Source: Antitrichia curtipendula (lineage: Eukaryota > Streptophyta > Bryopsida > Hypnales > Leucodontaceae). Taken from it: a DNA stretch of 64,000 nt. The stretch covers positions 30,026,696 through 30,090,695 of the forward strand of contig OX579638.1 of assembly GCA_951230915.1 (NCBI GenBank). Direction: 5' to 3'. Under the pieces are notes generated by a model. That model was given only the letters and a program-made list of their open reading frames with translations, did no database searches and had not been told where the DNA came from. Numbering within the stretch: position 1 is the stretch's first letter; each line of letters starts with the position of its first letter. A program made the translations under genes and the position numbers. Shown one piece after another: positions 18,338 through 38,387 of this stretch.

Positions 18338-18417
18338 CAATAATAAACACCAACTGGAGGATTAGTGCTTTCTTGTGCTACGAGACCCAGGGTTGTCACA
18401 TTTTAACGTCCAGGGCA

Positions 18418-18640
18418 AAATCACGTCCAAAATCCGGACGTCCGGACGAAGCGGACGCACCGGACGCAGCAGACGGCGTTCGGCGGTCGGCAGCCGCTGG
18501 GCGTCGGTTGGTCGGTTGGGTGCCGGGCGTCGGTTGGTCTCTCCGACGGCCAGTCGGACGCGCCGTGAGTCGGTCTCTCCGACGGCTAGTCGGACGCGTA
18601 TTATGTCGGACGCTTTTTCGGTCGGACGGGACCGTCAGCA
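18418..18640. repeat. GTCCGA/TCGGAC array 1 (left subterminal)
   Basis: A GC-rich island starting about 30 bp inside the left terminus, dense in CGGACG, GTCGG and TCGGAC, mostly reading TCGGAC inward. The array at the right end has the mirrored orientation, as expected for transposase-binding subterminal repeats. Confidence 0.85.
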
Positions 18641-19070
18641 GACATGCGGTTATAATGGAGGTTTTTTTGGGTGGTGACTGGTGAGAGCTAGTTAACTTCT
18701 GCGAATGAGTTTTAGGGTTAGGAAGATCTGGTTTTAAAACCTCTTCAATTGCAATTGTCATTGAAAAATGTGGAAATGACACTCAATGTAAGCGTTCTTT
18801 TTATTTTCAAAATGCACAGAACTTAAACGACTTTGAAGGCAATATTGTTGCATTGTACAATTACATTTTAGAATGTCATGCTCCATTTACAATAAAATGC
18901 ACAGAATCAAATTTTATTGAATTTGTCCTTTGTATTGGAAACCCAAAAACCTTAATGGTATTCCAAACATCAGTTTACTACAATGAAGCGGCAATAAACA
19001 ATCGATTGCCACATAGTGCCATCTATATATCATAAGTATTTGGACATCTAGGTTTACATCCCTTCAGTCC
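18640..19070. other. 3' flank of the transposase gene
   Basis: No gene. The part next to the transposase tail matches the DNA after the relic tail at 39,626-39,735 (shared words GGCAAT.GATTGTTT and TTCATTGTA), so it is conserved 3' transcribed or flanking sequence of this hAT family. Confidence 0.5.
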
Positions 19071-19396
19071 CTAAGGATTGTAATCACTATCTCCCTTCAC
19101 TTCAGCCCCGCTACTCTCACCTCTTCTTTTCCATCCGGTGTCTTCATCGCTGGATGCCTCTTCCATATTGTCTGATGAAGATTGTAGAATTCTCACTCCG
19201 GAACCATGTACTTCCCTAGATTTACGTGATCTGAATGCTTTACCCTCCTTTTTCACTTGTAATATGGACTTTCTAATGCTTTCCCTAAGGTCGGTGACCG
19301 GTTTTATTTTTGTCATCGGAGTAGGCTGAACTGCATCTAGGGGGGTTCTACTCACATTCGCTTTCTTCGATGGAGACATAGCAAAAGGCTCTATTG
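19071..19396 (-). CDS. Conserved C-terminal tail of the hAT transposase, displaced by a frameshift
   Basis: This frame encodes EPFAMSPSKKANV, RTPLDA, IRKSIL, a Ser/Asp-rich stretch and a KVKGDSDY ending. It overlaps the end of the main transposase frame in another register. A related relic at 38,939-39,625 carries the same tail (EPFAIFPSKK, RTPLDA, IRKSIL, KVKGDSDY) in one continuous register with the sequence matching the transposase before this point. The tail was therefore originally part of the transposase. The break lies in a run of eight A (plus-strand T, 19,400-19,407) where ten or seven would restore the register. An ATG at 19,379 could start it as a separate 102-aa peptide, which I think less likely. 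Confidence 0.7.
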
Positions 19397-22300
19397 CTCT
19401 TTTTTTTGTCTATTTTAGACTCTTTCACAACTAATTGTCCTGCTTTTTCGCCTCCTTGAATGATTACCTTCGTTGCGCTCAAGGATTGCGGTATACGGTT
19501 TGCTGATTTGAGAAGACCTTGTGATGAATGCCTAGATTTTTGAGCGAACATTTGAGCCAACGTCTCGTCCTTGTCATCATCACTACGTGATGAAATGGAT
19601 AGACTGTGATTAATGAATTGCCGTTTTCCACATGATGAACTTCCACAACCATCCAAAGTTGTACTAGCAGTTGTAAGTAGTGTACGTACACCCGGTGCAA
19701 GACCAGTATGCGGTGGTAATTGGGGATCTCGCAGAAGTGGCTCCTTTCCTTTTCCATTCCGGGTTAGGATTGGACTTCCAGACTTCATAAAACGCATGTC
19801 TTCATTCTCTTCTACTTCACGTGGTTTGATATTCTCAATCCTTGGTTCACCACTCTTCTTGTTCGAGAACACCGCTTTCAATTGAACCCTTGTGTTCCCC
19901 ATATTCATTGGGACCTTTACCCCCAATCCGCCCTTGTCATTGTCTTTGTCAATCTGTTCCGCTCGTGCCGCTACCGTGGATGGAGAGTTGGGAATTGGAA
20001 TCTCTTCACCCATTTCAGGATTCCCACCATTGATAAGCATTGCCCCATTTATTGCCGCATCTCGTACATTCATTGCCTCCTTATCCGCTGAAATCTTTTC
20101 GCTAGTCAACAACCCGGTCCCATCTATATATTTGGCTATCGGAAGTTTCTCTTCATCACATCCACGATTGTCTTCATCTGATGTATAATCGTAGACATCT
20201 CGATCATTGGCTCCCAAATCTTCATCATTCTGATTAGGGCTTTGAAACGGCTCATCGTTCGAAATCGGCTCATCATAGTTCACAGCATTTCCATCATAAA
20301 ATGCAGCCTCATGATTTTCAACATCCGAATTGTGTATGTCGTTGTCCATAGCACCTCCATCATCGAATGTGGGCTCGCCATCTTCCGAATCCTCATTTTT
20401 GGAGATAGGCATATCTGTATCTTCGAAAAGCACGTTCTCCTGATACCATTTTTTCTCATCCCTTTCCTTGGATTGGGCTAAGACTTTTGAATTGGTGTAC
20501 ACGTACACCAAATCATCTGCTCTCTGTGGCTTCAACTTGTTCCTAGATTTGTTGTGAACAAAAGAATAGCTACTCCAATTTCGTTCACACGAAGAAGAGG
20601 AGACCGGTTGTGCCAATATCCTCTTGGCAATTGGAGCAATGAGCTTTTCACACGCGCCTTCAAAATCCCACCAAGCATATGCCAACAACTGCTGTTCACT
20701 CGGCTCCAACATGTTGTGGAATGGCGGTTCCCTAAGTCGAAAAGCGACAAACTCCTTCACAACCGCGGCGTAATCTCCTGGTTTACAAATTTTCATGAGA
20801 ATACACTTGCATGCCTCTATCGCATTTTGATCGTCGGCTAGTTCTTTGTCTTCCAGAAGGTAGAGGTTCAGAAGAGCTCCTGCAAAATGCAGATCGGTCT
20901 CTACCATTTTGCGTCGGTCTTTAAAATACGCCAGCAGCGGATTGGCAAGAGCCTTGTTCAAACAAAAAGGCTCTCCAACCAAACCGGAGACGTGTTTTTC
21001 TAGATTTCTCATAATGTGCAAAACCTTGCCCATGCAGGGCATCTTTGCATCCAAATCACGTAGCCCATGCACAACAGGACCCACCAAGTCCTTAAAATTC
21101 TGACAACGGCGCCAGAAATGCTCGCTCATAAGTATCTTAAATACCTCTCGACAGTCACTGCGAGATTTCGATGTCCGGCCAAACTTCCGCACGTACTCAT
21201 TCCACTGCGGGTCCGTCACTGTCTGTTGCAATGGACCCTTCACCTTCAACAAACATGCAATTGTGATGAAATTGGAGGCAAACCTTGTTTCACCTGGCAT
21301 CAACAAGCTATACTTGGGCTCGTACTTCCAATATATTGCAAGCGGTTTATGCCTCATCTTGAAGAACTTCACTACGGTTTCCGCGTTGTCCACTTGGTCC
21401 ATTATCCATGCTTGTTTTCCCCAATCTTTTAGCAACAAATTCAAGGTGTGTACCGCGCAACCTTGGAAAAAAATGTGTGGATATGTAGCAATCACTAGAG
21501 CACATGCTGCGGGGTTCACAGGTGCATTATCTGTAGTCACTTGCACCACATTTTGAGGGCCCACTTGGACTATGAATTTCTCTAGGAGAGCGGCCAAATA
21601 CGTAGCGTTCTTATTGGCCCCAGTCGTATCCACCGCTCCTAGGAACTGCTCCCCCACAAAGGACACTAGCATGGCATTTATCAATGGCCGATTCCCGGTC
21701 GAGCTCCATCCATCAATGGACAGCGTTGCTCCGAACTTTCTAATGTTGTCTTCGGTCCTCTTCTGTAAATTTGTCTGCACCTCCGCCTTTGCTTTGTCAA
21801 GCAATTTATTGCGTATATCATTGTACGATGGCGAGATGTAGGGCCTACCAAACTCAGCTGTTCTCTTCACTGCTTCTTTGAATGCTGGATTTCGAGCTAC
21901 AGCAAATGGGATGTTGGCCGCATAAAAGAATTTGGCCCAGATTGCATTTAGAATCCGTTTATTGGCCGTCTCAAATCCATCCGATAGCCTGCTCTGCCTC
22001 TGTGGCCTACTGCTTGATCCCCGCACAGTGTCACGTTCGCTTGATGTTTGTGTATTTGGATTTCCATCAGAGGCCGCACGAAAGGATTGTTGCTGTGCTG
22101 TGCACGAGTCTTCTTGTGTACAAAGAGACATCTGCCTCCCACTTGAAAGATCATTGGCGACCACAAGCATGCCATTGCCATCCACATTGTCTCCTGTAGA
22201 TTTTCGTGGTATATCTCCATTGCATCGAAGAAATAGATTTTGAACTTGAGATGTCAACTTCGGACAAAGGCTTATTCCGTTATCTCTCAAACCTGATGCA

Positions 22301-22431
22301 CCTTTATATCCTAGATGGCTAAACAAACGGCTTGTTTTCCTCGCGAACACCAATTTGCAAGCTTTGCATTCCACTTTACCAACTGATGGGGTACCATACC
22401 AACAAGACCAATCCTTGCTCATAGTGACCAA
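19348..22431 (-). CDS. hAT-superfamily transposase (BED finger, DUF659-like RNase H core, hAT dimerisation domain)
   Basis: 1,027 residues, no intron needed. Residues ~6-56 form a BED-type zinc finger (CKAC, then H39 and C56 as candidate ligands) for DNA binding. Residues ~160-420 are a DUF659-like RNase H-fold region: IDGWSS places the first acidic residue at D240, and TTDNAPVN the second at D301, followed by GCAVHTLNLLL with the Cys/His pair typical of hAT. Residues ~585-650 are the C-terminal hAT dimerisation block, with YAWWDFEG and SSCERNWS; E616 is the likely third acidic residue. A long acidic tail follows. All hallmark residues are present, so the core may be active, but the last ~115 residues of the family tail are lost by a frameshift. 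The TATA-like box is at 22,662-22,668 and a GTCCGA array at 22,733-22,998. It would cut and paste the surrounding 20-kb element in the nucleus. Confidence 0.93.
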   Translation of the reverse strand: MVTMSKDWSCWYGTPSVGKVECKACKLVFARKTSRLFSHLGYKGASGLRDNGISLCPKLTSQVQNLFLRCNGDIPRKSTGDNVDGNGMLVVANDLSSGRQMSLCTQEDSCTAQQQSFRAASDGNPNTQTSSERDTVRGSSSRPQRQSRLSDGFETANKRILNAIWAKFFYAANIPFAVARNPAFKEAVKRTAEFGRPYISPSYNDIRNKLLDKAKAEVQTNLQKRTEDNIRKFGATLSIDGWSSTGNRPLINAMLVSFVGEQFLGAVDTTGANKNATYLAALLEKFIVQVGPQNVVQVTTDNAPVNPAACALVIATYPHIFFQGCAVHTLNLLLKDWGKQAWIMDQVDNAETVVKFFKMRHKPLAIYWKYEPKYSLLMPGETRFASNFITIACLLKVKGPLQQTVTDPQWNEYVRKFGRTSKSRSDCREVFKILMSEHFWRRCQNFKDLVGPVVHGLRDLDAKMPCMGKVLHIMRNLEKHVSGLVGEPFCLNKALANPLLAYFKDRRKMVETDLHFAGALLNLYLLEDKELADDQNAIEACKCILMKICKPGDYAAVVKEFVAFRLREPPFHNMLEPSEQQLLAYAWWDFEGACEKLIAPIAKRILAQPVSSSSCERNWSSYSFVHNKSRNKLKPQRADDLVYVYTNSKVLAQSKERDEKKWYQENVLFEDTDMPISKNEDSEDGEPTFDDGGAMDNDIHNSDVENHEAAFYDGNAVNYDEPISNDEPFQSPNQNDEDLGANDRDVYDYTSDEDNRGCDEEKLPIAKYIDGTGLLTSEKISADKEAMNVRDAAINGAMLINGGNPEMGEEIPIPNSPSTVAARAEQIDKDNDKGGLGVKVPMNMGNTRVQLKAVFSNKKSGEPRIENIKPREVEENEDMRFMKSGSPILTRNGKGKEPLLRDPQLPPHTGLAPGVRTLLTTASTTLDGCGSSSCGKRQFINHSLSISSRSDDDKDETLAQMFAQKSRHSSQGLLKSANRIPQSLSATKVIIQGGEKAGQLVVKESKIDKKKSNRAFCYVSIEESECE

Positions 22432-22661
22432 TTCGGATTGTTTATATTTGAATGAAATTGTAAAAGTAATGCAGTAACAGGTTGATAAATTTTGTCAAAA
22501 ACAAGACACACAATGTGTGCACAAAGCCTTGATAACCAAAGCCCCCCTGTCCACTGAACTATACATTACCAAGCAAGGGACCCAAAATGGGTCGGAACCT
22601 AGCCCTTGAAAATCAAAGCGTTCAGTTTCTCAAGAGTGCTTGCAAATGGCAAGGGTCTGGA

Positions 22662-22668
22662 ATTTATA
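22662..22668 (-). promoter_or_regulatory. TATA-like box of the transposase gene
   Basis: On the minus strand, ACTATAAATTCC lies about 230 bp before the transposase ATG and 65 bp after the proximal edge of array 2. Confidence 0.5.
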
Positions 22669-22732
22669 GTTCTGAGGTCGCTAGTGACCGTCGAACAGGG
22701 AATGAAGAACATTATTTCGGTCCCAGCGATTA

Positions 22733-22998
22733 GGTGGACTGTCGGACGCAGAGTCAGACGGGGTCGGACGCCTTCGGACGGGGTCGGACGGCGTCGGACC
22801 GTCCCAACGATTGGTCGGATAGGGTTCGGAATTCGGTCGGCAGTTCAGTCGGCGGTGAACAGGTCGGACGGGCTCTACGTCGGACGGTCGGTCGGCGGTG
22901 CACAGGTCGGATGGGCTCTCCGTCCGATAGTCGGACGGTCAGTCGGCGGTGCACAGGTCGGACGGCCTCTCCGTCCGATAGTCGGACGGTCGGTCGAA
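22733..22998. repeat. GTCCGA/TCGGAC array 2 (transposase promoter)
   Basis: About ten TCGGAC and two GTCCGA on the plus strand. The distal half is organised into about 54-bp higher-order units containing GGCGGTGCACAGGTCGGA and CTCTCCGTCCGATAG. It ends 300 bp upstream of the transposase start. Confidence 0.85.
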
Positions 22999-23019
22999 CC
23001 GATCGATTTCTGTTTGGGT

Positions 23020-24170
23020 TCACAAAGTGAAGGGCTCAAGTCTCAAGGGCTTGATCCTTACATGCCTAAGGCCCTATCTAGCGTATCTAGCTTGTGAAAA
23101 AAGAGCATAGACCACACTCAAGGAAATTGTTTGTTTTCCAAAATCAAACCGTAGACGTGTTCAATGTTTTAGCTTATTACTATTATTAATATGCACACCA
23201 ATCTCTATTGTCAAACTGCATATGAGTTGAAAAAAGTTGAAAAAATATATGTGTACTTCTCATGCCCATTGTGTTTGACAAATTAGGAAACAAATTTTTC
23301 TTGGGATTGGACGTGAGATGGACAACTAAAAATCATGTTAGCACACTAAAATATACTTTTAAAATTGGTTCCTTTGATTTATATATACGTAAAAAGCTTT
23401 TACTTATTCCATTTTGATTTTTGAGATGGAAATTACAAAGTGTTTTCTATTTTGCGGGCAGTTATGGATTTGCTATTGTAAAATAAACTTTGAAGTCTTG
23501 TATTTAACTCAATTTTTAATAGTTTTTGGAAAAAATTAAAGCAAAATAGGTACATTGTTTAGGGCAACAGTAGAACCGTTGGGATTGAGGTTTTTCAATT
23601 GCGTAATTATATTTTTTTCAATTTAGTGTTTTGAACCAACCTCTACTTCTTGCGTCTTCCTATTTTTTTCATATATGTTGTACAATTCCAAATGATCTGA
23701 AAATTTTCAAGCACGTATCCAAATTGGTTTCAAGAATTAATTTAAGGAGTAACCACCATTTTGGACATTTTTCCATTTAAATGTGACCTTGTCAAGTGCA
23801 GCGGCCCTTTTTTTGGCTGCGCCCGAAAAAGTTTTTTTCAGCAATTACAAATCTAATACCTTGTAATTTACAAGGTGAAAAATTCTGAAATTTTCCCTAT
23901 TCTACACATTAACAAGTTTACTACAAAAGCTACCAAGCATGTGTCCTGGCATTTAGGAATTCATCCATCAGTGACAGAAAAGTAACTTGTAATAGAAGGA
24001 CGCAAATCACATAATTGCCCAAAAGGGATAGCACAAAATACCATAAACTCTTAGCAAATCAAAACATATTTGCATTCTGCACATATTTTTATATTAAAAG
24101 AAACTCATAAATACCATGGGTACATTGCTTTAGTGGTACTACATTCTCCTGAGATCCAAACAACACTCCA
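23020..24170. other. Spacer between the transposase promoter and gene A
   Basis: No gene seen. 23,350-23,935 is the second copy of the dispersed repeat found at 6,240-6,805. Confidence 0.5.
23350..23935. repeat. Dispersed repeat, copy 2
   Basis: Same-orientation match to 6,240-6,805 inside the CACTA element; see that entry for shared words. Confidence 0.75.
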
Positions 24171-24182
24171 CGCAATTCTACC

Positions 24183-27100
24183 CTATTCCAAAAAAAGGCC
24201 ACCGGCACTATATATTATTACCGCTACGTTCCCCCGATACACGAGACGACCCTCATCACCCATGAGTCTTGCACTTCTACGGCGAGGCGTATGCACAAGA
24301 CTTGTTCCAACGGTGGGCCCTGCGGACCTAGCTTCCAAGTCAATGAGGCCAAACTGTCGTTTTGTTTCCGGAGAGTGGTCATCGTCGTCTTCCAACCTCC
24401 GTTTCTGCTTCCGCTTGGGATACAAGTCCACTTCCCCTGCCTTCAACGCTTTGAGTGCACTATCCACTCGACGGACCAAGGCGTTGACCGCTGCGTCATC
24501 ATCTTGCATGTATAACCATGCATGTCGATCTCCTCCCATTAGAAACACCCTCCATGCACTTATGATGTCGCCCACCCTCTTATCAAATTCCCTTGCCACG
24601 TCCACATAATAATGCCCTGTAGTTGACATCACATCTATTTCCACAAAAGCACGAACTTCTGCGGCTTGTTCCAACTTGGACAAAAGAAGGGCCCTGCCTA
24701 TCAAAGTGTGATTGTACGCCAAGTACTGCTCATGGAACTCTTGAGCATGCTCTTGTTCTATCCAATTGCCATCTCCATCTTTACGCACCTCCTTTTCCGG
24801 AAATCGGAAGAATTTATTGTGTTGCATGCTCCAATGTCCTCCCATGCTGCGACAAAACATTTCACGAGCCTCGTCATCCTCAATACCTCTGGCCCGCAAC
24901 TCCACTTCTCTGTCCTTGGTCATCCACACGTAATGATTATTTTCACATGAAGATGCCTTGGTTAGGTCGTGCACTTGGTCTAATGAATTCCACGTTATAG
25001 GTTTTCCCCAATGCATGTAATTTTGAAATTTGTATGGCGCTTGGTCAAGTGGAAGGTTCCATCGATTGTATTTGTGGCCGGGGGCATACCTTCTGAGATC
25101 CCAAGCATTTCATAGAACCTTGGGCAGAAAGGAGTTTTACACTCGGGACACCGTGATTTAATGAGAGATGCTTTGACAATGCATGTGACATGAAAAATGT
25201 GGCGGCATTGACCCATTGTTAGGGCTCCTTCCAGACCAGTATGACTTAGGCAAATGCTACACCTGCCCTCCATGATTCCGACGTTAGGATCACGAGCGTG
25301 CACGACTTCCTTCTCATTCTTCTTGATGTGTGCTGAAAACGTGTTGTAAGGGACCCATCCTTCCTCTGCTTCCAAGGTTCAATTGATGTGGGGATGCTGG
25401 TTGTTATTTGCATGGTTCAAGCGCTCAAACATTGCATCCATGTCTCCCCAATACGTAATGTCGGTGGACCCCCTCGGATGTGCCTCAAACATCTGTTTCA
25501 GTCGCCAAAAAGAGCTCTCCACGGCTTTGCATTCATCTTCCGACTTCATTGCTAATTTCAGGAGCCTTTTCATTGCTCGAGATACTACAGTCGGTTTGTC
25601 TTCGAGCTTCTGTACCCATGCCAACCATCGAGAGTCCGCACTGCCCGATGGCATGTTGCTATCCAACCACACTATTCGTTTCAAGCGCACCACTTCAGAC
25701 CAAGCATGGGCATTCTCTTTGGTCGCCTCATCCAATTTTTGCTTCAATTCTTCGACCTCACTTCCTTCCGTTTGCATGGAAGCATCTTGCAATGTTGGAG
25801 TAGGATTACAAATGGCGGTTTTAGGATTTACTTCCCTGCTCTTGTGGCCCTCCACAGCTGCATCTTTTTCAAAAGGAAGAGAGAGTTGATCACTCTCTTG
25901 AGTCTCTTGCACCTCTTGTGTTATGGGCACCAACCCTGGAATATCCTTCATCGGCTGCTCAAATGAGCGCTCATGGATCCTCTGTAGCCTTTCGTACTTC
26001 TTTTTCAATTCATCACATTGTGCCTTCCAGTTGTCATTGGAATCGTTCAAGGCCCTCAACGTCTGATTTTCTTCTGCTAGAGCAACCAAGTCTTTCAGCT
26101 TTTCGTACTTGTTGTCAAGGAATGGTAATATAGCCTGCGTGTACTTCATGAAAGCCACGGCACCAATGATCAGTTCAGGCGATACTTTGGCCAATTCCTC
26201 TGCAAATTCCGTAACCTTCGGGGACATTTCTTGTACCATCCCCGCTGCTGTGGTCAATGAGACAGCGGTTCTAGCAAACGCCTCCCACCTTGTGTTGGGT
26301 TTAGGAAAAGTATCAGAGCTGCCCGCCTCAGCATCTGATACGGATGGGCTTACCCCTATGTGAAGTTCCTTCCATCGAGCAGAGCACTGCACCAAGGCTT
26401 CCAATTCCTTCAGATTTGGCATGTGACGGAGAATCTCCAATTGCGAGGGAGGAATAGCTAACACTCCTGGATACTTGCTCGCAATGTCATCGCCATGAAT
26501 GGTGGAATCCCGAGTCACATCATGGGCTGGTGCTTTATTTCTTATTGACCGACGCCATTGATCTCGAGGGCTCAATATTGGGCTCGGCGACCCTGTCTCG
26601 TCTGGGTTCAAAGGTACATGTGTCAAGGGATCTAGAGCATTGCTCTCTAAAAGATTATCAATTGTAGCATAGGGCCTTGCGACTTGTTCCGGTCTAGGGT
26701 CCTGCTCATGTTCTCGTCGCAAAAAATGGGCCCCACGTTCGCTTAAAACGTTCTGCTCGTTCGGAACCATACTTACTGGAACCATGGTTTCTACGTTTGG
26801 TGTGCACATCAAAGCCGTTGGAGGAGTAAGAAACACCTCTCCCTCCGGATCTCCCAAGGAGGCACGACTCACTGTCGTTGAAGTCTGCGTAGAAGCCAAC
26901 GGTAATGCATCGCTTGGGCCCCCAGAGATGATTCTCTGCGGCACTAAAGTATTATTTAATACTCTTCTTGGTTTTGGTGTCTCACTTGGTCTTGCCTGTG
27001 GATTGTACAAATCCGGAATATCTTTTTGATTGCGATTAAGATGCAGTGGCTCCTTGGCTGTCGTTGGAAACGTGCTCCAATCCACCTTCCGAGCTAATTG

Positions 27101-27493
27101 GAGTTCTGCATACACCATGGAGGCCAAGCTGTAGTTTATGTACCCTTTACTCATTGGTTTGTCCCCAAGGAGTGTCTTCCACACCTCCAACGATCGTTCC
27201 TTAAAATGCTGGTCGTTGCAAGTCCATGGCTTGCAACTAAAATCATGCGTCTGAGTGGCATGGGACTCTTTGGGCCACAACTTGTTGATGTGGTACATTT
27301 TTACATACTTCTTGCACATCCTGGAGTTCCAATATTCCGCAGTCTCCTTCTCCCAATCTGGCTCCGCTTTGATGTTAGGGTCGTCCGTAATCTCTGAATG
27401 GAGCCCGTGGGGTGCCCCCTTCCGTTTAGTTTTCTTACTGCTTTCCGCCCCTGGATTCATCCTACCAATATCCGCAACAACTTCACCGCTCAT
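24183..27493 (-). CDS. Cargo gene A: coiled-coil/RING-H2 protein, interrupted by one TGA and one frameshift
   Basis: The frame opens at 27,493 with a basic KKTKRKG patch. Residues ~45-140 are a domain shared with gene B (CKKYVKM at 60-66, KVDWS at 136-140). Pro/Ser-rich linker and coiled coils (~460-510 and ~575-610) follow. TGA occurs at 25,379-25,381, but the same register continues with a RING-H2 domain (C745, C748, C763, H765, H768, C771, C782, C785), the fold of E3 ubiquitin ligases. Near 25,060 a frameshift leads into the last ~280 residues (from about APYKFQNYMHWGKPITW), ending in an acidic-basic tail. With both breaks healed it would be about 1,100 aa. No introns. Array 3 lies 220 bp upstream. 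The function is not known; DNA- or transposase-associated ubiquitination is only a guess. The breaks may be decay or assembly errors. Confidence 0.8.
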
Positions 27494-27713
27494 GACTGTC
27501 GCTTTGAATTTGCAACCGCTTCAAAAATCACTGAAAGTGACCCCCTCGAACCACGTGTATTTCAATCGAAAAAAGAGCGTATGTCGTTATAAAAAATGAA
27601 TGACCCCAACTCTCCACCATGTAGGAACAGCTTGCGCGGTGAAGCAAGAGCAGAACATCCGACACGGTTCTAATACCTCTGAGAGGAGAGAAGAAGTGAG
27701 GAAAAGTGAACAT

Positions 27714-28160
27714 CCCGTCCGACCTTATAGCAGTCGGACGGCAGACCTAAGTCAGGTCCGGTACCGAACCTGTCCCGGACGTCGCGAAGCGTCCCCGGAC
27801 TTGAGGTTCGTCGGACGGGCCGACGCCGATCGCTTCGGGGTCGGATGGGCAGCATGCCGTCCGACCGCCAGACCGAGACGTCCGACCTCCGAACCTGGAC
27901 GTCCGAACTCGAAGCGGATTACGGTCGGCTGTCGGACACCGGCGGCCGCTCTGGGACTGCCGTCCGATTCCCCGACCTAAACCCTCGTCTGATGCCCAAT
28001 CCGACCGGCCGTCCGATGGCCCGTCCTACACTCCTACCAGCCGTCCGATGCCGCTTGCGATCCGCGTCCGACCCCCGTCCGAAGCGCCGTTCAGACCCGC
28101 CGTCCGACGATCGGTCGGTCTTCGTCCAACCAACATCCGACTCGCCGTCCGATCAGGTTT
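27714..28160. repeat. GTCCGA/TCGGAC array 3 (upstream of gene A)
   Basis: The longest array, about 450 bp, with CGTCCGACC the commonest form on the plus strand and a few TCGGAC. It lies 221 bp upstream of the gene A start. A TATATAAATA sits immediately at its far (right) edge, so it may be bidirectional. Confidence 0.85.
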
Positions 28161-28167
28161 TCAGAAG

Positions 28168-28177
28168 TATATAAATA
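28168..28177 (+). promoter_or_regulatory. TATA-like box at the right edge of array 3
   Basis: TATATAAATA follows the last GTCCGA of array 3 by about 18 bp, pointing rightward as in genes B and C, but no gene follows in 28.2-31.2 kb. Confidence 0.4.
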
Positions 28178-28714
28178 TAAGATTCAGTGATCTTAGGATC
28201 CTTTTCCAAGGCCCATTATTCATGAAACAAGCATCCTATGCGACGACGGCTGCTGAAATCAGGAGATAAAAAAATCATGAACTCATGAACTTGCAACATC
28301 AAAGGTCAACCCGAGTAAGGTAAGAGGCTCAGAAATGGAGCATCTAAGGGCTGGTCTGCGTTTTTCATGTATTTCTTTGGATGGGAATATTTTTAGCTCA
28401 TTTTTCAGACATAGAGAAATTGACGAGGAATCTATCCCAAGTGGTTTTGTATTTTTCCGATCATTTTTGAATTACTTATAAATTTTCAAACAAGTTGGGT
28501 CGTAGGTCCCTATTTGTGACCCTAGGTCTTTCATAAACAGTTCACTTGCAATTCTAAATAAAAATGGGGTAACCAAAGAGAATGATTGGCTCTTGCAATT
28601 AATTAGACTTTTTTCCTTGATTCATTCAATGAATGTACTAGTCCATTTCACAACCATCTCATGTCCATTTCACAGTCATTTATAGGGTCCATTCTTAATG
28701 CCCGCTTTGTTTTA

Positions 28715-28895
28715 CAGCCTCCTACCTTAGGCGGAAGTAGTGGCCTCCTTTGTCCTTCGAACTCATTTGAGTTTGAAGTGGTCTCTAGTTCGATTCCCAG
28801 TGACATCATCTACCTTGTTTGATGATGTCACCTCCCTGATTGTGGGATTTGGTTTGGTCGTGGTAGCCAACCATCCAAAAAAAACAAAAAAAACG
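28715..28895 (+). mobile_element. Possible tRNA-derived SINE
   Basis: AGTTCGATTCCC at 28,787-28,798 matches an RNA polymerase III B box. GGCGGAAGTAGTGG about 55 bp upstream is a weak A box, and the unit ends in an A-rich tail (near 28,876-28,892). I see no second copy in the window and no convincing target duplication. Confidence 0.4.
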
Positions 28896-29209
28896 TCCAA
28901 CCAAATTGTGTTTGTATTTGGGAGGGAATCACGATTTGCTTGTGGAGGAGGGAGGTGTTGAAATGGAGTGCTTGGAAGGGGTGATCTCGAGTTTAGAAGA
29001 AGGATGTTTGTAGTACCATCCAACTACAAACATTTATGTTCTAAACTCGAAATTCTCCATTCGAAACCCTCAAGATTGGACACCTGCTCCTTCCACATGT
29101 AAATAATATTTGCTACTCATGTACAATCATGCCCTGGCTTGACGTTTTTTCTTTTTTCTTTTTTTTGCGGGGGGGGGGGCGGATAAATGAAATTTAGAGT
29201 GCGACCATG

Positions 29210-29975
29210 ATATGATTTTCATTTGATCTCTTCAAATTAGAACAAAGTTTAAATGAATTGATTTTAATACTTCAAACGTAAATGGAGGCACCATTATTTC
29301 ATTTTGTGCACTTCAAATAAAACCGAAGCCACCATGATTTCACTTGGATACTTCACAAATAAAACGAAGCCACCTTCATTTAATTCACCTACTTAAAAAT
29401 AAATCCAAGCCAGCATGATTTAATTTTGCTAAATCACATTCAAATCTAGACACTATAATTTAAATTCTGCTTCTTCACATTAAAATCAACACACCTTGAT
29501 TAAATTTTGCTACTTCAAATTAAAATCAAGCCACCAAAATTTAAATTTTACTACTTCAAACAAAAATCAAGACACCATGATTTACATTTGGCTACTTCAA
29601 ACTAAAATCAAGACACCATGATTTGAATTTTGCTACGTGAAACTAAGACCAAGCCAACATGATTTAAATTTTATACTTCACATTCAAATCAAGCCACTAT
29701 GATTTAATTTTCCCACTTGAAACCAAAATCTAGTAACCATGATTTAATTTCTGCTACTTCACATTAAAATGGAAGCAACATAATTTAAGTTTTGGTACGT
29801 GAAACTAAAACCAAGCCACCATGATTTAGATTTGGGTACTTCACATTCAAATCAAGACACGATGATTTATATATTGCCATTTCAAGCCAATTTTGCTACT
29901 TCAAACCAAAATCAAGCCACGGTGATTTAAATTTTTCCATTTGAAACCGAAACAAAGCCACAATGATTTTAAAAA
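29210..29975. repeat. AT-rich minisatellite, 41-bp unit
   Basis: About 18 diverged units with the core ATGATTTAAATTTTGCTACT and TCAAACTAAAATCAAGCCACC-like flanks; successive ATGATTT cores sit at 29,577, 29,618 and 29,659. Non-coding. Confidence 0.85.
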
Positions 29976-30210
29976 GGATATCCAATCATTTCTTTTTCAA
30001 TATGGTCTGGCGTTGATTTATGTGTTTTCCTAGATAAATAAGAATAACCATTATCCCATATGCCCCCTTATTATGGTGTCGTCTTTAATTTCATAAGGAT
30101 ATCCAATTTTTTTTCCCACTACGGTCTAACGTTAAGTCATGTTTTTTCCTAAAGAAATAAGAATACCCGTATGCCTCCTTATTATGGTGTTGTCACTAAT
30201 TTCATAAGGA
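29975..30210. repeat. Direct repeat, about 125-bp unit
   Basis: Two full copies and the start of a third, containing AAGGATATCCAAT, AAATAAGAATA and CCTTATTATGGTG. Confidence 0.7.
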
Positions 30211-31269
30211 TACCCATTTTTTGTGCATGAATGTGGTTGATCCACATTTCTTTTACAAGAATAACTAAGTTGTCTCTCTGAGCTTCTAGATGCCCCTCTA
30301 TTTGGACATGTTCATCATGTACAATTCTACGACACTTGACAGACAATTGTTCATTTGTGATGCAATGTTTTTAAAGAAAACACTAAAAGTCTAAAACGGG
30401 GATTGCATAGGAGTTAATCATCACATTTTAATATAAAATTGGAAATTTTAAACTTCAACAAGCTTGCATAAGTACAAGTCTGAACTCTAAATGTTTGCCA
30501 AATTTTTTAGGAGTTATAGACTTGTATGCATGGAAGCTTTCAAAATGTGCCTACACAATTCAGTAGTGTGCGTAGAGATTCTTTACATGAACTGACATCA
30601 TCACATACTCTGAACAAATGAATATTATAAACGTATTCCAGGTCAAGGGTTTAGGGTTTAGGATTTAGGGTTCAATTTCTGAAAATAATTTCAGGTTCTT
30701 CCAACATAGCTTTGGAAAGGAATCTACAAGAGGTTCAAAAATCATAATTCCCTCTTGGCATCAATGCAGTTTGAATTAAGGTAAAACTACCTATCACCCC
30801 CCTGACTTGCAATCTGAATATCTTGGGGCCAATTTCAATAGTGGTACCTATTTTTCAGAGGTGTGTGCTTGTTTCACAAATCAAACCCAAGTGGAATTAT
30901 AATTTTTTGATTAAAACTGTAATTTCTATAAATTTTTGAAGTAATTGGACTGAAATTACAAAACCGTCAGTAGACTACAGAAATAAACGTTCCCTAATGA
31001 ACCCATAACCGCCCAAGTCAAGTACAAAATACTGACCATTAATAGAGTGACACATTATCCCTTGTTGTCATAAAAAATCAGATTTTATCATAGAACGCTT
31101 TAATTTCTGTCATAAGACGAATGAAAGTGGATGTTTTGTGGACAGATTTGGATGTTTTATGGACAAAATGAGGTGACGGAATTGGGCTGGTCTACTCACT
31201 GAGTTGGAAAATTAACAATAATGGGCTATTTTACCTCAAAACTCCCCCTTTTTTCCTGCCCCAGTATCC

Positions 31270-31572
31270 ACGCCGTCTGATCAGAACGCCGTCTGACCAC
31301 CTGGGCGTCCGAAATTGGAGCCGTCCAACCTTCTGGCGTCCGAAATGAAGCCGTTCGACAAGGCCCGATTCTGGTCGTCCGAAGTTGCTGCCGACCGCCC
31401 GCTGCCCCGTCCGACGATCGGTCGGTCGCTCCGACCGATTTTTCCATTCCCTCGGTCGTCCACCTTCCGTCCGTGGCCGTGCGATTGGACATCCGGAGCT
31501 TCGTGGCCGTCCGATTTGGGCGTCCGAACCTGGAGCCGTCCGATGTCCAGAGCGACGTACGCCCCGTCCGAC
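31270..31572. repeat. GTCCGA/TCGGAC array 4 (gene B promoter)
   Basis: Mostly CGTCCGA on the plus strand, with several decayed copies reading CGTCTGA or CGTCCAA, the pattern expected from deamination of methylated CpG. It abuts a TATTTAAA box and lies about 300 bp before the gene B start. Confidence 0.85.
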
Positions 31573-31580
31573 TATTTAAA
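31573..31580 (+). promoter_or_regulatory. TATA-like box of gene B
   Basis: TATTTAAA directly follows the last GTCCGAC of array 4, 297 bp before the chosen start codon. Confidence 0.5.
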
Positions 31581-31876
31581 GGCGCGTCGGTCGGCTCACT
31601 TTTCACAGTCGTTTCCCTTGCGGAGTGGGCTGATCCAGCGCCTTCGGAATTCTGCGTGCCCCTTCCAGCTTGGTGTGTGAACGGCTGTGGCCTGTGGTTC
31701 GAGATTGAGGTACTGTTAGTCCTAAGTCCGGTTTTGAAAATCAAAACTAAGTTGTTTTTATAATGTGCAAGTCCCCTTTTTTCATCCACATTCTAACTTC
31801 ATAGCATTGCACGGATGTGTTGAAAAAATCAATTAAAATTCTAAAATCGACTCCTAAAAACGTAATCAAAGTTACC

Positions 31877-32947
31877 ATGCCACGCGGAGAAAGTGCACCG
31901 AAGGGAATATCACAAGAGATGAATTGGGCAGAATGGGAAAATCTTCTTTGCGTAGCGGAGCCGGGATGGCAAGAAGAGCCCAAAAAAGTGTGGGATTGCA
32001 CAACGTGCAAAAAGTATGTGAAAATGACACACATCTTCAAATTGTGATCACGTGCTCGTGCGGAGGTACAAGCTCGACGTTGGGAAGGGCAAATGACCAC
32101 GTGCAATAGCATCCATTTTGTTCGCCGATACGAAGAGATTCTATCGGCATGCGGTTTACCAATGTCGAAAACGAATGTCATGACTTATTCGACTATGGCC
32201 ATGGTGTGGGCGGAGATTGTACTCCACAAAGACGTAGATTGGAAAACAGTGTATGGGAAAAATGTAAAAACTCTGAATCGCCGACAGCACATGATTTATA
32301 CCAATTGGGTTGGAGCGAGCGATTGCTTGCCAGAGTGGTCCAATTGAGGACATTCTGGAACACTGTCGGTTGTGTTGCCTGACTCAGAGGATGATGTTTT
32401 GGACGACGATGATGTTCCCAATGTTGAAGCACCTGTGACATTTGGAGAGAGACACAAACGGCGAGAAGCTCGCGAAGACATTGAGTACGAGGAACAGATG
32501 CGAGAGGCAATGCGTCGTAGCGTGGAGGACCGTGGTCGACAACATGGGCATGACCGATCGCACCACCTTGACCGTGGTTCACGTGCCCCACAAGATTCAG
32601 GAAGAAGTTCACAATACAGTAATGCATCCCAAGGTGGCTCTCGAAGCACGCGGTATGACGATGCTAGCCAAGGTGGCTCCCAATACTATCTTGGGAGTAC
32701 TGCACCCGCTTCATATCATCATCATGGAGATTCTTATTATGGTGGTTCAAGTGAAGGAGGGTCCCAACACGATGTTCCCATTCCTGTTCTTCCTCCTTTT
32801 GGAGGTCCTTACTGTCCAAATTACGAAAAAGGAGTGGCTCCAAGTGGACAGGGAGACACCTACGGAGGAGGACCATATCTTGGTGTTTATGGGTGTGGTT
32901 CTAGAGGCCCAAATAAGAGAGATGATACCGATTCTGATTCAAAGTGA
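31877..32947 (+). CDS. Cargo gene B: gene-A-like N-terminal domain plus Gly/Ser/Tyr-rich tail, with two in-frame TGA
   Basis: One register runs from ATG 31,877 (context ACCATGCC; begins MPRGES, like gene C's MPRPKK) for 357 codons, broken by TGA at codon 57 (32,045-32,047) and codon 157 (32,345-32,347). The N-terminus matches gene A: AEPGW/AEPDW, then TCKKYVKMTHIFKL versus MCKKYVKMYHINKL, then KDVDWKT versus KVDWST. The first TGA falls exactly where gene A has Trp (KLW). After an acidic DSEDDVLDDDD stretch and an Arg/Glu helix, the tail is low-complexity, rich in Ser, Gly, Gln, Tyr and His, with SQGGS repeats. It lacks the RING of gene A. The function is unknown; it may be a truncated regulatory relative of A. 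No introns are needed. Confidence 0.7.
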
Positions 32948-32949
32948 AG

Positions 32950-34610
32950 CGGTGTTTTGTCTTATAGTGCAAGCCTGAGCACCTTATCCATTGATGGTAA
33001 TGGCCGTGGATTGTTGTTGTCGGCAAGCATTGTACAGTGATGTTGGGAAATTGCAGTTCCTGATTTTCTAAGTTAGCGGGATTAAGTTTTTATGTCCATA
33101 TAGAAGTACATTGGTAGCCATGTGATGGTATTATCCTTGAATACCGTTGTTGTATAACCAATGTTTTTTTTTAATATACATATGGTATCGGTCCGCGTTC
33201 TACAACTGAGTGGCGTATGTAAATCTCCAACAAAGAACATAATGACTTCCGTATTGACCTCAAAAAATGCATTGTATAAGTTATTTTTCCAAGAAATGAT
33301 TGACGCATCACATTGTGCCCCCCCAAACATAGTCCATACATTCTGAATCATGCTTGGAGTCCAAATTGAGTGAATGAAAACTTCACATTTAAATCCGAAG
33401 CATAAATTGGTATTGTTTCTAGTTTTGGTGGTGGATTTATATTACCTCCCCTTCTTCTTTTTTTGCTTCTGTTTCATTATCATTCATTCCATCCACCTTT
33501 TTTGCTTTTAGTTTCCTTTCCATTCATTCCCAATTTTTATTAAATCTGGAGTTTCAGTACTTGGACAACAAATGAGAGACCCTATCGCAAAAAAACCGAA
33601 GTTTCATTATCATTCATTCCCCATCCTTATTTGTTTTCAGAGGACCATCATTCTTTTCCAATTTTTTTTTGCTTTATGTTTCCTTGTCATGAACTTGCAC
33701 ATTTTTTGGGGCTTTTTGTTTCGTGATCATTCATTCCCAATTTTTTTGGGCCTCACGTTCCCTTGGCATGAATTCCCCAATTTTTTGGGCTTTATGTTGT
33801 CTTGTCATGCATTCCCCAATCTCCATGTTTTCGGACTTTCCTTTTCCTGGTCGTTCATTCCCAATTTTTTTTTGGCTTATTTTTTCCTTGTCATGCCATC
33901 CCTATTTTTTGGGTTTTTTTTTATCTTGTTAGTCATTCTTCAATTTTTAGGGCTTCAAGTTTTTTTGTCGTTCATTCCTCATTTTTTTGGTCTCTCAGTG
34001 TACTTGTCATTCATTTCCAATTTTTTTCCAAGTGTTAACCCCTAAATGCCAAAGCCACACAAATGTGGTGTTTGCAGAACTTTGAAGTTCAATAAAACCT
34101 AACCAAGATGCTATTTTTAGTAGTTCATACTTTTAGAAAATTCTTCTACAAGTCTAGTTTTAGCTACAAAAGTCCGATCTTGAAAATAAATGATAGTGGT
34201 TTTTCTATTCAAGTTTTTGTACAAGGGTACCCATTGCAAATTTGCAATCTTGACTTCCCTTTCTGTTGAGAGCTCTTCAAAATGAGCCTCAAATATACTA
34301 GATCTTGGAGGAAAATTCACATTCAAAATCCATTTAATAAAATTGTGGAGTACATTTGAAGAAGCCATAAATTGATTGGGGTTATACAAGTTAGGGCTAT
34401 TAGGCCCTTTAACTGTTTAACAGTTTAACCTCATATTGTTTTGGTCACCAAATTTTTAGATTTATCTTTCAATGGAAGAAGATTGAAAGATTTTAGCAGT
34501 TCTAGCACCCTCATGGTCAAACATTATAATCTTGAACTCCATCCGTGATATTTTTTTTTTTTTTTTTTGGTATTAGACCTCTAACATATGTAGTTTGAAT
34601 CTGTCCCCAC
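32950..34610. other. Spacer between genes B and C
   Basis: No gene supported. 33,450-34,030 is a T-rich minisatellite of about 50-60-bp units; open frames across it are repeat artefacts. Confidence 0.5.
33450..34030. repeat. T-rich minisatellite, about 50-60-bp unit
   Basis: About ten units built from CATTCATTCCCAATTTTTT, a G/T-rich GGGCTTTATGTT and CCTTGTCATG. Translations look hydrophobic and repetitive and are not counted as genes. Confidence 0.8.
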
Positions 34611-34617
34611 TGGGAAT

Positions 34618-34972
34618 CCCGTCCGACCCTGACCCCGACCGAGAACCCGGACGACCGAACTTTCCAAAACCCGGACGAACCACCCGTCCGATACCCCGTC
34701 CGACACAGCCATCCGAGAACCTTTGCGTCCCCGACCGACAACCCGGCCGACCGAACTGTCACAAAATCCGTTCGAACCACCCGTCCGAGAACCGCTGCGT
34801 CCGACCTGTAACCGTTCGAAAACCTGTCGGATATCCCGTCCGATACCCGTTATAGCCGTCCGATCGGTCGGCTTCATCGGACGGCCGAGTCGCGACCGAC
34901 TGATCGGATGGCGGAGAATCGGGCCGACTGCCGAGAAGGCCGTCCGACAAGTATAAGAGTGGCGGACGGCCC
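34618..34972. repeat. GTCCGA/TCGGAC array 5 (gene C promoter)
   Basis: CCCGTCCGA and GACCGA words throughout, running across a TATAAG box and ending about 240 bp before the gene C start. Confidence 0.85.
34952..34957 (+). promoter_or_regulatory. TATA-like box of gene C
   Basis: GTATAAGAG follows a GTCCGAC by two bases, about 260 bp before the start codon, as in gene B. Confidence 0.45.
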
Positions 34973-35214
34973 GACCGCCCTCACTCTTGCCTTTGCCCTT
35001 GTATTTAACAAGAGGAGCGGAGAGCTTGGTGGTTTATCCTCCATTGGCTCCTTTCTTAGGGAAGGCAAGAGTCGGATTACAAGGGGCCCCTTATTGCTGT
35101 TTTTTTCAGTTTTGGCGTGACGGACTAACGGTGTATGCATTATTTTTGATTTGAAGTGAAATCCCGAGTTCAATTTCATCTTTTGAATATTCATTGATAG
35201 TACAGTTCAGCAAG

Positions 35215-36708
35215 ATGCCGAGGCCAAAGAAGGAAGGGAAAGGCAAGCGGGTGTTGTCAGATGATGAAGAAGCTAGGATAACTAAGGAATATCCCACAGA
35301 TGCTTGCAAAGAATTTTTGATCGAATTTACTGTCAAGTTTTATGAGTCCGAAACCACCACGTCCCTGGATAGCAAATATGTTAGATATCAAGAGGAATGC
35401 ATTCAAAAATTTAAAAACGACATGACGCAGAAGATGTTAGAAGCACTGAACGTTCCGCAATGGAGGCATGAGATGGACAAACCGCGCTTCAACAAATTCT
35501 TGGCGAACAGGGTGAATGATGCATTTTGGAATGCCAAAGTGATTGTAGAAAAATTCAGCAAGAGCTACCGTGCACAGGATGCAGACTTCGAGCAAATCAT
35601 TCTCAGGGCAGACTTGTTTATTCAACGGTGCCATCCATTTGCTAATTCACGGAATAGGCAAGGGTCAATGTTTTGGTGGAAGAGCGTTGAGGGAATGGCG
35701 GAATTGCAGAAGGGGCGACGGCATCTCGTAGCGCTTCCAGAAACAGCAAAGGTGATTGCACAAGATGACAAAGTCATGATGGGCGGGTATGCAACAATTC
35801 GTAGGGTCCGAATTGAAGGATGTCCTGGGATACCTGTATTTTGGGAGTTTGCATCAAAGGTATCTCGCCAACATGGTATACAACCAAAACTCGCAAAATT
35901 GGAACACCAAAACGAGTCAATGGCGGTGAGGATTCCACATGATGGAGTCATACGATTTTATGCAGTGCATGCAACAAACAACGAAGGGTATTCATACTGG
36001 TGGAACGGCGGAATACTGCGGCAAATGTTGAACTTGGATGTGCAATATCCAGACAACATAGGTATTGCTTTGGCTTGTGCAAACGCTGATCCCGAAGAGG
36101 TGATTTGAGCTTTCCGTCTCGCTCGTTGGAGGAGGAAGCGCACGGAGCTTGCATGGGCATTGCTGCACATCATGAATGCAGTGCACAATGCTGGACATCT
36201 CCACAATGATATTTCCCCGGACAACATCATGTTTCACTTTCCCGAAGACGAGTCCCTAGTCTACATTGGAGTTTGCGATTGGGGCTTGACTTCCGTAAGT
36301 AGCGAAGCACCCAAATCCTTGTACACGTTCACATCTGCGGGTGAGAAGGAAGAAGCTTTGCGAAGGAGGTGGTGGGTAGACCCCAATATTGCATATTTGC
36401 ATAAGCGAAATGCGGATGTGGAAATCATTCCCAATTTATCACGAAAATCAGAGGAATATGTGGTGGGTCGAATAGCTCAGAAGATCAACAAACAATGCAT
36501 GTCAGTGGCCTACCACAAGTTACACCGGGAAACCCAAGGACATACAAAGTTTAGCCATGAGGATTTGGCAATGGTGTTTCATCAATACTTGGAGCGACTT
36601 TGCAATGAAGACAACGGTTCACGAGGTAGTTTGGCTGAAATTACCAATCGATTTACCAATTCTTACAATTGGCCAATACCAGATGAACACTTCCGACATT
36701 CATATTAG
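35215..36708 (+). CDS. Cargo gene C: protein-kinase-like protein with one in-frame TGA
   Basis: Start chosen at AAGATGCCGAGG (35,215), giving MPRPKKEGKGKR, a likely nuclear signal and parallel to gene B. The first 297 codons hold a helical N-terminal region and then what looks like a kinase N-lobe (GGYATIRRVRI, then FWEFASK, where K215 could be the ATP-binding Lys). A TGA follows at 36,106-36,108, and the same register continues for 199 codons with the C-lobe: HNDISPDN (HRD-like loop, D332 and N337) and CDWG (DFG-like, D355). Lys, Asp, Asn and Asp are all present, so an active kinase or a recent descendant is plausible. HxD and DWG variants point away from standard plant receptor kinases. Whether the TGA is decay, read-through or a sequencing error is unknown. 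Array 5 and a TATA-like box lie upstream. Confidence 0.75.
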
Positions 36709-37059
36709 TACTTGAGTGTACTATATAGACTATAGAACTGTAGAAGTATTTAATCAACGTAGAAGTGAGGATTTACGTTTGTGGACCATGTGGCCTAAAT
36801 AGTATTATTTTTCATTTCTAGTATATACCAATTTATATGCAATTGGATGTACATTTTGGATTCTATAGTGTCCGGAAATTGTATATCTTCTCCATCATTT
36901 TTTATATGAAATACATAAACCGCTTTAACCAAAAATGCATAAATTCTTGTTGATGGATGTTGGATTGATAAGGTTCTGTGAGAAGTTGTATGAATTGTCA
37001 TATGAACGTGCATGTAATAGGACAATGCAAAAGGAGTACATTATATTTAGGTTTTCAGT

Positions 37060-38090
37060 AATGTCTACCCATTTTTTTTTTAATTGAATACCCTTTAGGG
37101 TATTCAAATTCCTATTCTACCCTTTTTTAACAAAAAATTCAATACCCTTTAGGGTCTTGAATTTCCTATTGTACCCATTTTTTGAAAAAATTGAAAACCC
37201 TTTACTTCTTTAGGGTATTCAATTTCCTGTTCCACCCATTTAAAAAAAAAATTGAATACCCTCTAGGATAATCAATTTCCTATTGTACCCATTTCTTTAA
37301 AAAAATTGAATATCCTCTAGGAATCTAGGGTATTCAATATGTATTCTATCTAGTTTTTTTTCAAAATGGAATATCCTTGAGGGTATTGGATTTGAAGAAA
37401 CATCCATTTAAGAAAAAAAATGAATACCCTAGAGGAGTAGAGGGTACTATATATATCTATTGTACCCATTTTTTTTCCAAATTGAATACCCTTCAGGGTA
37501 TTCAGTTTTCCTATTCTACCCATTTAAAAAAAATATTGAATACCCTAAAGGGTATTCAATTTCCTATTCTACCCATTTTATTTTTAAAATTCAATATCCT
37601 AGAGCGTATTCAATTTCCTATTCTACCTATTTAAAAAAAAATTGAATATCCTCTACGGTGTTCAAATTTCTATTCTATTCATTTTTAAAAGAAAATTGAA
37701 TTTCCTCTAGGGTATTCAATTTCCTATTCAACCCATTTAAAAAAAAATTGAACACCCTAGAGGGTATTCAATTTCCTACTCTATTGATTCATTTTTTAAA
37801 AGTTTATACCCTCCAGGGTATTCCATTTCCTATTCTACCCATTTTGGGTTAAAAATCGAATACTCTAGAGGGTAAGAGGGTATTCAATTTCCTATTCTAC
37901 CCATCTTTTTTTAAAATTCAATACACTAGTCCCTAGAGGATGTTCAATTTTCTAATCTACCCATTTTTTTAAAATAATTGAATTTCCTGTAGGATATTCT
38001 ATTTCCTATTCAACCCATTTAAAAAAAATTTGATTACCCTACAAATTTGAATACCTTAAAGGCTTTTCAATTTGAAAAAATATTTATTTA
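37060..38090. repeat. Palindromic minisatellite, about 60-bp unit
   Basis: About 16 units, each containing TTGAATACCC, a short GC core (CTAGAG or TTTAGG), GGGTATTCAA, then TTTCCTATTCTACCCATTT and an A-run. The paired TTGAATACCC/GGGTATTCAA makes each unit self-complementary. It lies just inside array 6 near the right end of the hAT element. Confidence 0.85.
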
Positions 38091-38103
38091 AGAAAAAAAT
38101 CGC

Positions 38104-38370
38104 TAGTCCGACGCCCGCTCCCGTCCGACTTTCCTCCAGCCCGTCCGACCTCCGACGGAGCGTCCGCATTTCCATCCGACCTCAGACGTCCCGAAGGCCC
38201 GTCCGACCTTTGACCCTCCGTCCGAAGTCCCGTCCGACCTCCCGACCCCCTATCCGACCATCCACTGGACGGGGGGTCGGGGTCCGTCCGAATGCCCAGG
38301 GACGTCCGGAGGCCAGCGTCCTGGGACTCTGGACGTACGTTCGGACATCCAGGGCGTCCGGACGTCTGGA
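38104..38370. repeat. GTCCGA/TCGGAC array 6 (right subterminal)
   Basis: CCGTCCGAC words up to within 10 bp of the right terminus; read inward they are TCGGAC, mirroring array 1. Confidence 0.85.
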
Positions 38371-38387
38371 CAACCCTAACGAGACCC

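Follow-up and report, generated by a model that had tools for sequence, protein, structure and literature searches.

Can a transposable element mark its ends and its promoters with one and the same word? Partial precedents are known. In maize En/Spm, a member of the CACTA superfamily, one protein, TNPA, binds an end motif that overlaps the element's promoter and can counter methylation; one promoter is involved. In the VANDAL21/VANC21 system a short motif is repeated in non-coding regions, including upstream of a gene, and its arrays expand and shrink as tandem repeats (PMC5735166). Related VANDAL families use different motifs and carry accessory proteins beside the transposase, and both the binding of VANC and the resulting hypomethylation have been demonstrated in Arabidopsis (PMC5735166, PMC10398659). 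Among hAT elements, the subterminal hexamers AAACGG near both ends of maize Ac are bound by the transposase (PMC3260210), and the CCHC finger of the Hermes BED domain reads short subterminal repeats, the two ends being bound unequally (PMC10368747). Our statements on these papers, here and below, refer to the portions of their text that were available. The subject of the present analysis is a 64,000-nucleotide stretch of the genome of the moss Antitrichia curtipendula (the window), which holds, by its sequence, a 19,991-bp hAT element at positions 18388–38378.

This element carries six arrays of the word CGTCCGA: each end has one nearby, and each of the four genes is preceded by one. We call its family E1; E2 is a related hAT element, nested in one of the other E1 copies (c7), with a word of its own. 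The arrays may constitute the element's own address code, bound at ends and promoters by an element-encoded protein. It is towards this reading that, on balance, we lean.

Arrays of one word inside the element

How closely is the word tied to the element? The window contains 65 sites of GTCCGA/TCGGAC, against 14.47 ± 3.67 expected, a count reached by 0/100 shuffles. Sixty of these sites lie inside the element (3.0 per kb) and five in the remaining 44 kb (0.11 per kb). A preliminary description of this DNA had noticed such arrays within the hAT element and nowhere else, and the counts agree with it. Each of the six arrays (A1–A6, table 1) exceeds the dinucleotide shuffles of its own sequence, both for GTCCGA and for GTCCG (0/500 each); GC content is therefore no explanation, and all six arrays are real. 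For the longer word CCGTCCGA the pooled count over the arrays is 38 against 0.98 expected. Five arrays exceed their own shuffles for it; A1, with one site (reached in 41/500), does not, and by exact sites it is the weakest array. Its orientation is opposite to that of A6, so the two subterminal arrays do mirror each other, as had been claimed. GTCCGA, the motif first proposed, is enriched, but the core is longer by one base: a leading C is present at 51 of the 55 array sites, which makes the core CGTCCGA. Since its flanks are loose and its spacing is irregular (9 to 100 bp), we regard CGTCCGA as a scattered word.

Might the arrays lack any shared function? GC-rich tandem repeats could have arisen by slippage and spread within the element, their places being simply the non-coding DNA that tolerates insertions. 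Tandem units of differing length, from 10 to 51 bp, are present in five of the six arrays (all but A5), and A2 varies by whole units between copies. Apart from the 7-bp word, however, different arrays have little in common (flank identity between them is 6.1 of 20, against 5.6 by composition), and the AT-rich tandem repeats of this element, with units of 39, 41 and 54 bp, are nearly free of the word. Nor does chance reproduce the layout. When the arrays were placed at random 200,000 times in the non-coding parts of the element, with overlapping draws scored as misses and with criteria set after the arrays had been seen, they fell before all four genes 95 times and in no draw also at both ends. 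The related element E2, moreover, repeats the layout with another word. We consider an origin of this kind very improbable.

Do the arrays instead cluster binding sites of a host transcription factor and thereby tie expression of the element to a host programme such as stress? Host factors of the DREB type have the core RCCGAC. The arrays hold more of this core than expected (23 against 9.3, 0/300), and they do lie upstream of genes. But the main array motif reads TCCGAC, not RCCGAC, and A6 holds no RCCGAC and six CGTCCGA; host DREB sites were rejected on these grounds. A host factor would also leave unexplained the arrays at both ends and the different motif of E2, and the arrays are concentrated in the E1 family. 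This explanation is improbable.

Where do the arrays stand with respect to the genes? The nearest GTCCGA was measured at 320, 224, 306 and 268 bp upstream of the start codons of the transposase gene and of genes A, B and C, close to the 302, 221, about 300 and about 240 bp given before. The order array, TATA-like box, ATG holds in all four genes. In genes B and C the boxes (31573 and 34952, + strand) lie beside the last array site, as had been noted, whereas the arrays of the transposase gene and gene A sit farther upstream of theirs. Gene by gene, these boxes are weak evidence: of 500 shuffles of each array–ATG gap, 81, 21, 106 and 98 contained a TATA-like box (4 to 21%). There is also a second TATA-like run (28168–28180, + strand) at the far end of A3, pointing away from gene A and possibly serving a divergent or non-coding transcript.

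The sites that adjoin the boxes of genes B and C would suit a transposase that limits its own dose. Acting alone, it would bind all the arrays by its finger, forming the transpososome at the ends and blocking transcription at the promoters. hAT transposases are known to bind subterminal repeat arrays (Ac, PMC3260210; Hermes, PMC10368747), and the CCHC pattern is nearly invariant in this transposase family. On the other hand, the more distant arrays of the transposase gene and gene A look more like activating or chromatin sites, and the co-travelling genes A and B would be left without a role. We think autorepression unlikely, though less so than a host factor.

Other copies and a related element with another word

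Does the arrangement recur elsewhere in the genome? Our searches covered the 400-Mb assembly that holds the window. The DNA and protein searches score the best 40 to 44 candidates only, so that counts of places are lower bounds. The transposase-promoter array was found at no fewer than 40 places, the window included (41 rows, two of which are one place); for 25 of the 40, the gene C promoter array follows 10.4–12.4 kb downstream on the same strand. Six near-full copies were read (c4, c5, c1a, c10, c1b and c7). All four promoter arrays and the right-end array are present in each of the five that reach that far (c4, c5, c1a, c10 and c1b), and the sixth, interrupted in gene A by a nested element, retains the transposase-promoter array. 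In c1a a 3.3-kb insertion separates this array from its gene. Exact left-end sites number two in c7, two in c10 and four in c1b; the left ends of c4, c5 and c1a were not found within the sequence examined. Across 33 transposase-promoter regions, window included, every one holds from 2 to 13 CGTCCGA. The promoter arrays first described from the window alone are thus found in other copies too. Copy c4 (L009–L011 joined) adjoins, and probably lies inside, a gene-A relative (~40% identical) of yet another element, so that families are probably nested here.

Could the word belong to an independent satellite, the alternative raised in the preliminary description? Three CGTCCGA with gaps of 3–25 bases give 684 matches in the genome (overlaps counted), against 4 for the reversed pattern. 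Pattern searches return the first 100 places, all from contig C1. Among the 100 triple matches so listed, 90 are no more than 20 kb from a known place of the E1 family, five resemble by eye A5 and A6 from a deleted copy, and the other five fall at two places, four in a 14-bp satellite and one alone. With 684 matches against 4, and 90 of the 100 listed near family places, an independent satellite is ruled out. The 14-bp satellite, CGTCCGAATGAACA (G000:C1:14731951-14732041), contains the E1 word and lies away from known copies.

How do arrays change once they are in place? Turnover and decay were measured for array A2 alone. The promoter alignment has 26 rows (the window, 20 regions and five of the six copies, c1a being left out for its insertion). 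Outside the array, the 25 other regions are 94.0–98.6% identical to the window. Insertions and deletions number 3.23 per kb per copy in A2 and 0.70 in its flanks, a ratio of ~4.6, and in the more diverged copies entire 43/51-bp units of A2 are missing (alignment read by eye).

Does a related element use the same word? E2 was read without its right end. It has the same end CAGGGTTGTC as E1, and its transposase, with the motifs DGWS, TDNA and CERNWS, is by direct measurement 31–35% identical to that of the window. Its word has the consensus GGCGAC(C/T)(G/T)C(G/A)GGT. GGCGAC sites number 79 in E2 and 6 in E1, CGTCCGA 51 in E1 and 1 in E2. The borders of the E2 arrays were chosen after the sites had been seen. 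The subterminal array (200–545) holds 12 sites against 0.38 expected; three sites (0.11 expected) precede the transposase start by 283–330 bp, a TATA-like box lying in the interval; and six sites (0.18 expected) form an array upstream of an accessory gene, each of these counts being reached by 0/500 shuffles. E2 also has a long 114-bp satellite made of its word sites. Genome-wide, triples of the E2 word give 2634 matches against 6 in the control, and the first 100 listed make up 22 groups, defined by motif alone, of which 12 have two or more arrays. When three sequences were searched with the N-domain profile of gene A, the E2 accessory protein matched at E 1.6e-24, and a gene with the N-domain of genes A and B accompanies the transposase in both E1 and E2. 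The motif therefore differs between related families, of which two are compared, E2 from one copy. To the left of the element in copy c5 (L012) we noted a hAT-like end, CAGGGTTGAC, and in it recurring words of the GCGGACAGGC type, possibly a third motif family.

A candidate address code and its readers

What would account for these observations together? Motif and element occur together, the layout is common to the copies, and the word differs while the gene set persists; the simplest cause would therefore be a reader encoded in the element. In the address code that we favour, many copies of CGTCCGA would be bound by such a protein. Bound end arrays would help to assemble the transposition complex, bound promoter arrays would switch on all four genes jointly or keep them free of silencing, and one recognition event would mark the whole family in the genome. 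The promoter arm is taken as activation or anti-silencing, after VANC proteins on VANDAL target arrays, because arrays in non-coding DNA, turnover of tandem units and differing words match VANDAL/VANC. What we infer is that a protein binds the word, which protein does so and in which direction it acts.

The link between motif and family, as far as it can be read from sequence, supports a self-contained regulon, as the preliminary description had supposed, and the separate motif of E2 similarly supports a putative co-evolution of motif and element-encoded reader. The BED-finger transposase then named as reader now has a competitor. The transposase finger is plausible: its C-C-H-C pattern, at residues 43–77 of the open frame beginning at 22494, is nearly invariant across the family, and Pfam zf-BED falls below its cut-off (E 0.1 in the window; 2/22 members at E up to 1). 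The N-domain common to gene A, gene B and the E2 accessory gene is the second candidate. A division of labour, in which the transposase would act at the ends and an N-domain protein at the promoters, is slightly favoured.

What speaks against an address code with an element-encoded reader? Besides the enrichment of RCCGAC, the most diverged copies hold just 2 to 7 CGTCCGA (2 in L048). The evidence from E2 comes from one copy without its right end, and its transposase-promoter array has just three sites. A predicted model of the A/B N-domain (mean predicted local distance difference test score, pLDDT, 68.7) gave no match to solved folds at E up to 0.001, so that DNA binding by this domain is a guess. 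Pfam detected neither of the VANC domains DUF1985/DUF287 in the gene A and gene C frames, in the C-terminal part of the gene B frame or in the homologues P0002, P0008, P0037 and P0067. The decay of A2 weighs on the same side. Its CpGs were substituted at 81/1303 in the core (6.2%) and 62/1131 in the rest of the array (5.5%), and those of the flank at 48/752 (6.4%); 134 of the 143 changes at array CpGs are C>T or G>A. Array CpGs are thus substituted at the rate of flank CpGs, and resident copies are therefore probably methylated, arrays included. Non-CpG substitution amounts to 20/978 in the core, 126/3523 in the rest of the array and 187/16204 (1.15%) in the flank. The core is kept better than the rest of the array and worse than the flanks, so that these counts show no constraint on it after insertion.

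The CpG content of the arrays is nevertheless high (observed/expected 1.41, against 0.28–0.59 in the spacers of the element), and masking the motif with 0, 1 and 2 mismatches lowers it in part, to 1.21, 0.90 and 0.76. Hypomethylated arrays, considered because of this content, were dropped for resident copies on account of the decay of A2. Instead, the active lineage, selection for the word or newly formed repeat units would account for the high content.

What else is known of the four genes? Homology to the transposase continues to ~19074 in another frame. In an alignment of 21 of the 22 homologues with the window, D261 and D322 are present in 21/21 rows with a letter there and E637 in 22/22; Dimer_Tnp_hAT is found in 22/22 family members. 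A sequence search of the PDB with the transposase profile gave 0 matches. The window copy is decaying: beside the stops and the frameshift of genes A, B and C (table 1), the C-terminal frame of the transposase is broken, as it also is in copy c4. Frames free of stops in sister copies reach 1141 amino acids for the transposase. Full gene A homologues have ~1100 amino acids, and the longest open gene A frame among the copies has 980 (c1b). The 356-amino-acid frame of gene B is open in c5 and c1a, and the 497-amino-acid frame of gene C is open in c10; c4 has a stop in gene C at the same codon as the window.

In the gene C alignment (29 of 50 homologues and the window piece) G187, K212 and E231 are invariant, and D329, N334 and D352 nearly so; the PDB sequence search returned kinases only, as weak matches. 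Two homologues come from the moss Ceratodon purpureus (49% and 44% identity). Another, P0038, which carries the label of a Bacilli metagenome bin, shows 64% identity with the gene C kinase across 96% of the query and is probably mis-binned plant DNA. Scans of viral and prokaryote collections for DNA of relatives gave no confirmed locus. Three of 13 gene A homologues have a longest contig equal in size to that of a transposase homologue (17,649, 8,444 and 45,926 bases); judged by equal sizes alone, the two genes probably sit together in other genomes too.

To the right of the element, 38963–39622 (+ strand) is the C-terminal relic of another related hAT transposase, 30–39% identical to homologues. 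A coiled-coil/RING protein at 47995–50091 (− strand) was tried as a third member of the N-domain family and rejected: its RING alone resembles that of gene A, and its N part does not match. Near it lies an unassigned 691-amino-acid frame (42867–44942, + strand) with no Pfam match; the two perhaps represent another element with an analogous accessory gene.

Table 1. Features of the E1 element in the window, with positions counted from the first nucleotide of the window.
Feature	Position	Strand	Remarks
Target-site duplication, left copy, ACGAGACC	18380–18387		same 8 bp at 38379–38386
Left terminal inverted repeat, CAGGGTTGTC	18388–18397	+	same start in copies c7, c10 and c1b
Array A1, left subterminal	18418–18640		four TCGGAC and CGGACG-type sites; 36-bp and 16-bp tandem units
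hAT transposase, start codon 22422	19348–22422	−	DUF659, Dimer_Tnp_hAT, D261-D322-E637
TATA-like box TATAAA, upstream of transposase gene	22663–22668	−	from sequence, with shuffle control
Array A2, transposase promoter	22728–23005		12 GTCCGA; whole 43/51-bp units vary between copies
Gene A, start codon 27493	24228–27493	−	N-domain, coiled coil, RING finger, C-terminal region; stop and frameshift here
TATA-like box TATAAC, upstream of gene A	27586–27591	−	from sequence, with shuffle control
Array A3, upstream of gene A	27700–28170		14 GTCCGA, mostly reversed relative to gene A
Array A4, gene B promoter	31260–31600		8 GTCCGA; TATTTAA at 31573 adjoins last site
Gene B, start codon 31877	31877–32947	+	N-domain paralogous to gene A and low-complexity tail; two in-frame stops here
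Array A5, gene C promoter	34615–34980		9 GTCCGA; TATAAG at 34952 adjoins last site; at least 40 places genome-wide
Gene C, start codon 35215	35215–36708	+	divergent protein kinase; one in-frame stop here
Array A6, right subterminal	38100–38370		8 GTCCGA; orientation mirrors A1
Right terminal inverted repeat, GACAACCCTA	38369–38378	−	CCCTG in copies c4, c5, c1a, c10 and c1b
Target-site duplication, right copy, ACGAGACC	38379–38386		from sequence

E1 among known systems

To which group of transposons does the element belong? The span first given to it, 18418–38370, takes in the arrays but stops short of the true ends at 18388 and 38378. The inverted ends of the window element read (C/T)AGGGTTGTC. 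Its left end CAGGGTTGTC recurs in c7, c10 and c1b, and the right end is GACAACCCTG in c4, c5, c1a, c10 and c1b, the window having a final A instead. Both further copies that have both ends are flanked by clean 8-bp target-site duplications (ATGGTGTA in c10, CCTACAGA in c1b). With its 8-bp duplication, short terminal inverted repeats, DDE residues and dimerisation domain, the window element is a member of the hAT superfamily. CACTA elements have CACTA termini and a 3-bp duplication; here the termini are CAGGG and the duplication 8 bp, so membership of the En/Spm (CACTA) group is out. Membership of VANDAL/VANC is likewise out: the transposase and domains differ (DUF659 and Dimer_Tnp_hAT, no Mutator-like transposase). 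By analogy, however, the element may work in a similar way. In the openly licensed literature, as far as its text was available, we found no paper on this element or on hAT arrays at both ends and cargo promoters, which is weak evidence of novelty.

What might follow? We suggest, very tentatively and with more doubt than belief, that these hATs evolved sequence-specific self-recognition independently of VANDAL. A private word would stand at the ends and at every promoter, and an element-encoded reader, either the transposase finger or a member of the A/B N-domain family, would recognise it and counter silencing of the whole element. Word and reader would change together as families split, giving at least two non-overlapping codes in this one genome, and the co-regulated RING and kinase cargo would act on the silencing machinery of the host. 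In the accessible parts of the literature, sequence-specific anti-silencing is known from a single group of Arabidopsis elements. If true, a further instance in a moss and in a different superfamily would suggest that transposons repeatedly evolve family-specific codes by which self is told from host, and it would provide DNA readers whose target arrays are known. Since E1 and E2 reside in one genome but differ in motif, exchanging arrays and readers between them would put the idea to a direct test.

How, finally, does E1 compare with the systems from which we set out? As in VANDAL/VANC, there are family-specific motif arrays in non-coding regions, tandem turnover, differing motifs and accessory proteins. 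VANDAL, however, is Mutator-like and the window element a hAT, the VANC domains were not found in the frames scanned and, unlike in the published account of VANDAL21, all four genes and both ends of E1, which is known from sequence alone, carry an array. En/Spm has one promoter, and E1, a hAT, has four that bear arrays. With Hermes, E1 shares a hAT transposase with a CCHC pattern and subterminal repeats; the Hermes repeats described lie at the ends, whereas E1 has arrays at its cargo promoters too. As in maize Ac/Ds, a hexamer recurs several times near each end of a hAT element, but Ac measures 4.6 kb and E1 20 kb, and E1 places arrays before its separate cargo genes as well, an arrangement absent from the account of Ac.

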